Positions 16,874-44,536 of a stretch of 47,238 nt of DNA are shown here, one piece after another. Below the pieces are notes generated by a model. It worked only from the letters and a program-made list of their open reading frames with translations. It was not told where the DNA came from and did no database searches. The stretch lies in the NCBI GenBank assembly GCA_023245415.1, contig JAHFKJ010000010.1, positions 1 to 47,238 on the forward strand, written 5' to 3'. The DNA comes from Candidatus Gottesmanbacteria bacterium. Lineage in GTDB: Bacteria > Patescibacteriota > Microgenomatia > UBA10105. Each line of letters begins with the position of its first letter. Within the stretch, counting starts at the first letter, position 1. The translations under genes and the position numbers were made by a program.

Positions 16874-17527
16874 TTAGAGTGGTTTCCTTTCTCCTTTGGC
16901 AACCCAAACTTTAACACCGATATATCCCGACTTAGTCAAAGATGGAATTTTGGAAAAATCTATTTCTTCACGAATTGTAGAAAGCGGTACAGTGCCTTTT
17001 TGAAATTTTTCGCGCCGGGAAATTTCAGCTCCAGCAATTCTTCCTGAAAGCATAATTTTCACACCTTTAGCTCCAGCTCCCATGATGCGTTCAATTGCCT
17101 GATTAACGACGCGTTTATGCGGCAGTCTTTTAGTTAATTGTTCTGCAATATTACTGGCGATAATGTGAGCGTCTAAATTAGGTTCTTTAACCGGTTCAAC
17201 ACGCAATTCAATTTTTAAATTGTCTCTCTTACCGTTCCGCTTGAGAAAGTCAGTGACGAATTTTTTGAGTAATTCCAGACCAGTTCCTCCTCTACCAATT
17301 ACTAAACCCGGACGCGAAACCAAAATGATTACGTCGATTTTATTTATTGACCGTTCAATCTCAATTCGAGACAACCCCGCTGATCTTAAACGTAACGTAA
17401 GTGCTTCGCGAAGTTTTATATCTTCAAAAAGCAGATTTTTGTAATATTTATCCTGAGCGTACCAGCGTGAACTCCAGGTAAATAAAGTTCCCAATCTAAA
17501 TCCATGAGGATTTACTTTTTGTCCCAT
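16874..17527 (-). CDS. rpsC: 30S ribosomal protein uS3
   Basis: [24 protein letters not shown]...[22 protein letters not shown]. Confidence 0.98.
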
Positions 17528-42174: not shown

Positions 42175-42507
42175 TTATCTGCCAAGACGCGTGATGTAAT
42201 TAAAGGCATAGAAATATTTTCGCCAGAGTCCAGCAGAAGAACTATACGAGTTTTTTCCAAAAAAATAATCGACCAAACATTCGCGCAATCTAGTCAATTC
42301 TTTGAGTTGAGAATAGGTATAGTCACATGCAATGGTGAGGTCTAAAAGTTCCAGACATCTAAAAAAAGCAAACTGTGAATATTCAATATTACCTTTTTCT
42401 TTCCAGTTGATTGCCCGCTCGACTTCGCTCCCTACATGCGCAAGCTGCTCGCAGAGTTGAATTTTTTTCCAGCGACCGGCAATGAGTTGCGGATGCTGTG
42501 TATTCAT
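42175..42507 (-). CDS. Helical hypothetical protein paired with DUF5674
   Basis: 110 aa; EQLAHVGSEVERAINWKEKGNIEYSQFAFFRCLELLDLTI; 4 bp from the next gene. Confidence 0.7.
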   Translation of the reverse strand: MNTQHPQLIAGRWKKIQLCEQLAHVGSEVERAINWKEKGNIEYSQFAFFRCLELLDLTIACDYTYSQLKELTRLRECLVDYFFGKNSYSSSAGLWRKYFYAFNYITRLGR

Positions 42508-42511
42508 GTAA

Positions 42512-42853
42512 TTAATCTTTAATTAAGCTTTGTACTACGACTATTATTTTCTTTTTAATCGTCTGATCATCCACACCACGGCTCAAGTTTTTTTGGCCCG
42601 GCCGAACGTTAATCATTGAGTCAAATTCAATAAATTCATCACCCTGTAAATCAGGATATAGATTTATTCCCCAAATATTCTTTTGATTTGATCCATCCGA
42701 AATAAGCATTGCTTCCTCATCAGAGTGCAGTTCAGCATCAAGCGTCATGATATTTCTCTCAATGTCCACAACCGCTTTGACTAAATTCCCAAAACTCTTT
42801 TGGGCAATCTGGTGTAAATCCTTACGGTATATCGGCTGACGAATAATTTGCAT
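42512..42853 (-). CDS. DUF5674 family protein
   Basis: FGNLVKAVVDIERNIMTLDAELHSDEEAMLISDGSNQKNIWGINLYPDLQGDEFIEFDSMINVRPGQKNLSRGVDD; start set at MQIIRQP. Confidence 0.85.
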   Translation of the reverse strand: MQIIRQPIYRKDLHQIAQKSFGNLVKAVVDIERNIMTLDAELHSDEEAMLISDGSNQKNIWGINLYPDLQGDEFIEFDSMINVRPGQKNLSRGVDDQTIKKKIIVVVQSLIKD

Positions 42854-42895
42854 ACAGCAAGTATTATAACTCACAAAAGTTGAAAAGAGGCGATT

Positions 42896-42927
42896 GCATA
42901 TCAACACCTGGAAGCTGTTTTAAATAT
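42896..42927. repeat. Direct repeat copy A flanking the SET gene
   Basis: GCATATCAACACCTGGAAGCTGTTTTAAATAT. Confidence 0.75.
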
Positions 42928-42952
42928 TGTAGTCCAAAGACACTTCTGCTGA

Positions 42953-43453
42953 TTAGGCACCCATGATCTTCGTGCGAAGGCGGATAAACTCAACTGTCCA
43001 ACTCGGTAAATGTCCTTTATATGTGTGTTGAAACTGCGGATTTAAACAGTCGTCGGACTTAATTATCTTTCGGCAATTAAGACTATGACAATTACAATCC
43101 CAATTTGCTCTAAAATCGCTATTTATCTCGGCAGTGGCATAATCATATGTAACTTCATCGCCAATATTTATATCTTTTCTGGCTACGAGAGTCTCATCAT
43201 CGGTATTCCAGGTATTTGGATCGCAGCTGTGATTCATATATTCACTACCATCAGAAACAATAATAAACTTATCATTATATTGATAAGCGAGTTTTTGTCT
43301 TAAAGGCGGAAGCTGATGAAGTTCTTCCAGAGTAAGTTGCTTTTCGTGGGAATCTAATTTCCATACGATTGCACCTTTCGGAATAAATGCGGTAGCTACT
43401 ATTCCTATACCGTTTATTGAACTATTACTAACTTTAACATTTGCATTTAGCAT
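42953..43453 (-). CDS. SET-domain lysine methyltransferase-like protein
   Basis: GIGIVATAFIPKGAIVWKL; GSEYMNHSCDPNTW; DINIGDEVTYDYA; post-SET WDCNCHSLNCRKII; start at MLNANV. Confidence 0.9.
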   Translation of the reverse strand: MLNANVKVSNSSINGIGIVATAFIPKGAIVWKLDSHEKQLTLEELHQLPPLRQKLAYQYNDKFIIVSDGSEYMNHSCDPNTWNTDDETLVARKDINIGDEVTYDYATAEINSDFRANWDCNCHSLNCRKIIKSDDCLNPQFQHTYKGHLPSWTVEFIRLRTKIMGA

Positions 43454-43491
43454 ATGAACACCTGTTAACACCTAGGGAGTGTTTTAAATAT
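43450..43491. repeat. Direct repeat copy B flanking the SET gene
   Basis: GCATATGAACACCTGTTAACACCTAGGGAGTGTTTTAAATAT; last 25 nt match copy A at 20/25 ungapped with identical ends. Confidence 0.75.
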
Positions 43492-43555
43492 AACATACAT
43501 CAAATGTCATATTATATCTTGTAACATATTCCAATATCTTCTAATATCTTCCCAA

Positions 43556-44536
43556 ATGAAAACTCCGCCAGATTATCAAACTACTTTACAGATCACAAAA
43601 CTGTTGCGGGAAATTGAGATTTTAAAATCTGTTTTTAGCTTAATTCCGATCAATCCTCAAATTATTACCAATATCCGTCGCGCGTCATTTCTCAAGAGTT
43701 CCCTTTATTCTGCCCGGATAGAAGGCAATCCTCTTGAACTAAGTGACGTTACAAACGCGACATTTACCCCTTCCAGTTCAATGAAAAAACGCGAAGTTGC
43801 CAATATTTTACACGCGCTCACTTTTATTTACGAAGAATCACCACAAAAAATGTCTCAAGATTTTTTGAAAATACTTCACCGTATTGTTCTTACTGATATT
43901 TCACCTGATGCAGGTATATTTCGTACCGAAGTTTCTGCTATTTTTAATACCGCGGGGGTAGCTATGTATATGACTCCGCCGCCGCAAAAAATTGCTGAAC
44001 TCGTGGGCAACTGGTGTAATTGGACCAACGCCAGTAACGAACCGGGTCCAGTCAAAGCTGCTTTGGCTCATTATTGGTTTGAAAAAATTCATCCGTTTTT
44101 GGACGGAAACGGCAGGGTGGGAAGACTGGTTATTTCATGGATTCATATACACTCTAATTTTGATTTTGGAGGCCTTGTAGCTATAGAAGAATATATTGAT
44201 GAACACAGGCAAGACTATTATGACGGTTTAAATACCTCGGGAAATAATATCACGGCTTTTGTTGAATTTTTTCTTACTGCCTTTGTAGTACAAGTTCAAA
44301 AAGCACTGAAACTGATAAAAAATCCGCCACCCCAGACGCAAAGCAATTTACTTCCCCGCCGGCAGGAAATCGTTGACACCATCAAAGATCATACTCTGGT
44401 TTCATTCGATATGCTTTGGCGCAGGTTTCAAAAAGTCCCCAAGAGCACACTACATAATGATCTAAAACAACTAATTAAAGGCAATCACATCAAAAAATTG
44501 GGAACGACTAGAGGGGTGGTGTATACACTTGAGTAA
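43556..44536 (+). CDS. Fic family protein with C-terminal winged-helix-like region
   Basis: HPFLDGNGRVGRL (HxFx[DE]GNGRxxR); SARIEGN matches the [S/T]xxxE[G/N] inhibitory motif. Confidence 0.95.
   Translation: MKTPPDYQTTLQITKLLREIEILKSVFSLIPINPQIITNIRRASFLKSSLYSARIEGNPLELSDVTNATFTPSSSMKKREVANILHALTFIYEESPQKMSQDFLKILHRIVLTDISPDAGIFRTEVSAIFNTAGVAMYMTPPPQKIAELVGNWCNWTNASNEPGPVKAALAHYWFEKIHPFLDGNGRVGRLVISWIHIHSNFDFGGLVAIEEYIDEHRQDYYDGLNTSGNNITAFVEFFLTAFVVQVQKALKLIKNPPPQTQSNLLPRRQEIVDTIKDHTLVSFDMLWRRFQKVPKSTLHNDLKQLIKGNHIKKLGTTRGVVYTLE

Follow-up and report, generated by a model that had tools for sequence, protein, structure and literature searches.

This locus raises two questions, namely what the two short direct repeats flanking a SET-domain gene are, and how they came to bracket that gene. 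The window, i.e., the whole stretch of DNA that was analyzed, comprises 47,238 nucleotides of a Candidatus Gottesmanbacteria contig, and an earlier note made from its letters reported one repeat copy at 42896-42927 (copy A) and another at 43450-43491 (copy B); both are present there letter for letter. The 25-mers at 42903-42927 and 43467-43491 are the sole matches in the window to the pattern AACACCTNNNNNNTGTTTTAAATAT with up to three mismatches allowed, and as many matches were obtained in one of 100 shuffled controls. The two copies have the same orientation and are 564 bp apart, and the bare pair (20 of 25 positions identical, ungapped) is borderline, because 17 of 300 simulated 1.8-kb regions reach the same value. 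Two points missed in the earlier note are that the core of A and B is a degenerate palindrome, AACACCTnnnAGGTGTT, and that each copy is a degenerate form of the same longer element, approximately 31-45 nt in length. As REP-like elements on the minus strand, copy A covers 42896-42931, 3' of SET and between the SET stop codon and the promoter/start of a DUF5674 gene, and copy B, which has an extra AGGTGTT half-site, covers 43450-43496, 5' of SET and overlapping its start and likely Shine-Dalgarno sequence. Elsewhere in the window, a short ORF with four tandem TCPELAEG peptide repeats is found at 1333-1581, which indicates that a small DNA unit is repeated there.

The window belongs to a genome of 1.55 Mb (G000, whose contigs are denoted C18, C26, and so on), which was covered by searching and by inspection of chosen stretches, and the 19 specified bases of A/B have one other zero-mismatch match in it, located on C18 at 28 nt past the end of a transposase ORF, in its downstream flank. 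The 25-mer is thus not frequent at random sites, a possibility that the earlier note had considered, since its sole other exact match in the genome adjoins a transposase gene. When zero or one mismatch is allowed, the core AACACCTnnnAGGTGTT occurs at six places in G000, four of which are on C18: the copies at C18:17226, 19393, and 20688 are exact, and those at C18:21454, at C44:2950, and in copy A have one mismatch. Both strands of the window were scanned with a 31-base core taken from the hairpin region on C18, TGTTATATTTAAAACACCTCCCAGGTGTTAA, which matched best at copy B (28/31) and next best at copy A (25/31, ungapped, 42901-42931); the third place reached 19/31, and the maximum over 300 simulated 47-kb windows was 23/31. 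Against this independent C18 element, the A/B pair is highly significant, unlike the bare pair. A covariance model trained on five other hairpin copies, with A and B left out, found copy B genome-wide with 35.7 bits (E = 2.1e-4), and the next site that was neither a training copy nor its reverse strand had an E-value of only about 3. Copy A by this model alone (16.7 bits) is not significant genome-wide, and its probable assignment rests on the direct 31-base match and the company of copy B. A chance repeat in A+T-rich DNA, which the simulated 1.8-kb regions would allow for the bare pair, is extremely improbable in view of the match of both copies to C18, which exceeds all 300 simulated windows, and of the genome-wide E-value of copy B.

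The hairpin family to which A and B were compared is intergenic, with about seven copies per 1.55 Mb. The internal AACACCT duplication pointed out in copy B by the earlier note recurs at C44 (AGGTGTTGTCAGGTGTTCA vs. AGGTGTTAACAGGTGTTCA), and it therefore looks like a variant of the element, not an accident; the extra half-site of copy B (AGGTGTTnnCAGGTGTTCA) is also found at C44:2950. An ATATGC tail is common to A and B and is absent from the other copies of the family. Of three intact copies tested, two fold better than shuffled sequence, but neither A nor B does, and for this reason A and B are probably no longer good substrates. In A, B, and the intact copies alike, no GT[AG]G tetranucleotide precedes the hairpin on its 5' side, and we use the name "REP-like" because of this absence; the REP tetranucleotide is likewise missing from classes 2.6 and 3, which are atypical members of the Y1 superfamily (PMC6006769).

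The C18 transposase gene (L009:8740-9417, where L009:5200-9500 corresponds to G000:C18:17200-21500) codes for 225 amino acids with a Y1_Tnp domain (PF01797, 9.6e-9, above the cut-off), and it matches the NCBIfam model REP_Tyr_transpos (NF047646) with 3.6e-13 and 49.6 bits, below the curated cut-off of 80. Its HuH and Tyr motifs, NH(F/Y)H and RYIH(L/I)NP, are kept in nine aligned proteins. The sequence YHVFNRG has no Thr at the position that we take to be that of the N-terminal Thr of RAYTs, and NPFKSF is found in place of NP(L/V)(R/K)xG. That motif and the N-terminal Thr are marks specific to RAYTs (PMC2817692). Because these marks are missing and the NF047646 score is below the cut-off, the gene is called "RAYT-like". 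Two REPs, the hairpins at C18:20688 and 21454, flank it, one on each side. The same region, G000:C18:17200-21500, forms a 4.3-kb island with four REP-like hairpins. Going along it, these bracket a HEPN/nucleotidyltransferase pair with an uncharacterised ORF, then a 343-aa gene, and then the RAYT-like gene; the hairpins at 17226 and 19393, on the two sides of the HEPN/nucleotidyltransferase pair and its neighbouring ORF, are near-identical and have about 70 bp of flank in common. No Y1_Tnp match was found on the contig bearing SET.

Seven Y1_Tnp matches were found in G000. Perfect hairpins of other sequence lie on both sides of the transposase genes on C26 (CAAAGCTTAGCTTTG on both sides) and C34 (TCCACCTGTTAGGTGGA and TCCACCTAACAGGTGGA on the two sides), and a single hairpin lies beside each of those on C38 (TTAGGGTTCAACCCTAA) and C60 (ACACCCCGGGGGTGT); the differences in hairpin sequence between these genes point to one hairpin type per transposase. 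A second hairpin family of G000, CCACCTnnnAGGTGG, is of the type that flanks the RAYT-like gene on C34 and has 12 exact copies, and with up to one mismatch it is found at 19 places, compared with none for a reversed-pattern control. Its copies are distributed on C22, C29, C34, C41, C42, C44, and C60, and the three on C60 (L027) have the same orientation and are 2.1-2.4 kb apart. In related genomes, the A/B hairpin type with other loops tightly flanks RAYT-like genes in G040 (C13), G048 (C5), G013 (C22), and G238 (C6), and in G013 the RAYT gene on C22 is bracketed by doublets of hairpins (spacing about 61 bp, similar middles). A survey of 374 genomes of the class detected the A/B type in 50, and its table contains no match to the reversed-pattern control; further copies fetched from this survey were mostly single and had no transposase nearby, and one more hairpin-RAYT-hairpin unit, that of G238, was obtained.

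Both copies are homologous to the RAYT-flanking hairpin, and the hairpin-gene-hairpin layout is present in G000 and its relatives. Because of the homology to the C18 hairpin, the E-value of copy B, and the tight placement of hairpins around RAYT-like genes in relatives, we consider A and B to be decayed REP-like elements of a Y1/HuH RAYT-like (TnpA-REP) family whose intact member is on C18, with a probability of roughly 0.85. Counterpoints to this identity are the non-significance of copy A alone in the covariance model, the failure of both copies to fold better than shuffled sequence, a number of about seven copies rather than hundreds, the missing canonical 5' GTAG, the score of the RAYT model below its cut-off, and the lack of a Y1_Tnp match on the contig of SET. 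The RAYT-like transposase would recognise the hairpin in single-stranded DNA and cut beside it, and would disperse REP copies, or segments with REP ends, into intergenic DNA. Two copies of the same orientation would have come to lie on either side of a horizontally acquired SET gene, most probably through insertion of a REP and local copying; A and B would then have decayed, and the tail of copy B would have been recruited as the ribosome-binding site and start of SET. The earlier note had proposed a one-gene cassette bounded by recombination-like sites, and the part of this proposal that stands is the relation to a mobile-element family; the sites are REP hairpins of a Y1/RAYT-like transposase, not recombinase core sites. 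Core sites of a site-specific recombinase were rejected, as the hairpin family tracks Y1 transposase genes. For SET itself, mobility is a tentative proposal.

Among known systems, the REPs and REPtrons of RAYTs (PMC2817692, PMC8266576, PMC6006769) are alike in having hairpins that are cognate to a Y1/HuH transposase gene and flank it, that are dispersed in intergenic DNA with local clustering, and that occur as several transposase/hairpin families per genome. The present elements differ from them in the patescibacterial host, in a perfect 7-bp stem with a 3-nt loop and extra half-sites, in the lack of the 5' GTAG, in the very small number of copies, and in the bracketing of a SET gene by two decayed copies. 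IS200/IS605 elements and their non-autonomous derivatives are similar in the Y1 transposase, in hairpins near both ends, and in that no terminal inverted repeats were seen. They are distinguished from the case here by the transposase, which at about 225 aa is RAYT-like and not of the short IS200 type, and by the fact that no tnpB was seen.

The bracketed gene (42953-43453, minus strand) codes for a SET-domain protein of about 166 aa from its ATG (Pfam PF00856, 1.4e-11). In its catalytic NHSC (within NHSCDPN) and YDY motifs and its post-SET-like Cys cluster it resembles bacterial SET lysine methyltransferases, from which it differs as a small stand-alone protein in a small-genome bacterium, and its PDB matches are the SET domains of KMT2D, KMT2A, and KMT2C. 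Since the protein groups with an Anaerolineae (Chloroflexota) SET (98/95; 45% identity) and apart from the SETs of its own order, horizontal acquisition of the gene is suggested. Downstream of copy A and outside the element is a DUF5674 gene (42512-42853, minus strand; PF18924, 1.2e-33), a normal gene with its start at 42853 that the earlier note missed. In the region 42512-42880 on the minus strand, a TATAAT is located only about 9 nt before its ATG, and given this distance the gene may be transcribed leaderless. Together with the gene at 42175-42507, it forms a pair conserved in nine relatives, in none of which SET is upstream of the pair, and the upstream neighbours vary. On the other side, a Fic/DOC-family gene (43556-44536, plus strand; PF02661, 2e-20) is divergent from SET across copy B, and its membership in the element is putative.

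The positions of the copies relative to these genes bear on the second proposal of the earlier note, a duplicated leader or operator. As described there, copy B holds the SET ATG (43453-43451, minus strand) and an AGGTG stretch, and the ATG of copy A opens an 11-codon ORF. The AGGTG of copy B, five bases before the SET ATG on the minus strand, is by its position a plausible Shine-Dalgarno sequence, so that the leader proposal holds to the extent that copy B contains the probable ribosome-binding site and start of SET, as a by-product. Copy A is unlikely to be a leader of DUF5674, because DUF5674 has a TATAAT and an ATG of its own, with copy A lying upstream of both. A duplicated operator or leader co-regulating SET and DUF5674 (or Fic), with the likeness to the hairpin due to the site of a shared regulator, would fit the palindromic core and the location of copy B between the divergent SET and Fic genes, where it overlaps the SET start. 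We regard it as improbable, because other copies are found downstream of genes, between convergent genes, and, in several genomes, close against transposase genes at either side, and because promoter-like matches did not exceed the number in shuffled sequence and no terminator-like site was detected. Operator or leader was rejected as the primary meaning on similar grounds: the sequence flanks transposase genes on each side, it occurs between convergent genes, and the promoter and terminator scans were at background level.

With the REP identity of A and B kept, two accounts of the bracket differ in its origin. In one, SET was a passenger: a RAYT/Y1 transposase acting in trans would have moved a non-autonomous unit made up of a REP end, SET, and a second REP end. 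The layout and orientation are the same as those of the hairpins around RAYT-like genes; with about seven family members per 1.55 Mb, two that lie 564 bp from each other are hardly independent; the ATATGC tail is peculiar to A and B; and SET falls with a protein from Chloroflexota and apart from SETs of the same order. A parallel case is found in G013:C7 (L059:1079-2502), where REPIN-like doublets bracket an ICMT-type methyltransferase and a RibD_C-domain gene, mirroring the doublets around the C22 RAYT, and the class has at least two places where hairpins of RAYT type bracket ordinary genes. An empty site was not found in the relatives compared, the upstream neighbours of the DUF5674 pair being variable and the flank of the G013 pair, an M23 peptidase gene, having no match in six other genomes of the genus; the comparison at the DUF5674 pair fits an insertion and the lack of one alike. 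Moreover, REPs of G000 are commonly located in spacers between accessory genes, singly or in runs. No A/B-type hairpin was found at other SET genes in 21 loci checked, most of them with 1.5-3 kb of flank. Movement of SET as a passenger is a tentative reading that we consider somewhat unlikely. In the other account, to which we give about even odds, the REPs landed separately, or one was copied locally, around a resident SET gene, and the bracketing is incidental. REP multiplication near an existing copy has been described (PMC8266576), runs of same-orientation REPs in successive spacers are present on C18 and C60, and A and B have decayed to differing degrees, although a single event accounts somewhat better for the tight spacing and for the ATATGC tail that both copies have.

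RAYTs are usually seen as domesticated enzymes that spread only tiny hairpins. A wider reading, which we consider quite unlikely, is that RAYT-type transposases of Patescibacteria move single accessory genes bracketed by REP ends, forming cassettes of one or two genes that are mobilised as single strands by Y1 enzymes and in which a REP half-site can serve as the ribosome-binding site of the cargo; the cargo meant is SET here and the ICMT and RibD_C genes in the relative. Literature searches that combined RAYT or REPtron with Patescibacteria or the candidate phyla radiation yielded no paper describing elements of this sort, and the A/B hairpins would extend the known REP/RAYT kind into a bacterial group for which we found no description of them. 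If cargo mobilisation is true, small genomes would gain a simple route to genes such as a SET methyltransferase; if it is false, the repeat is still explained, and the case illustrates how a REP remnant can become a region of translation start.
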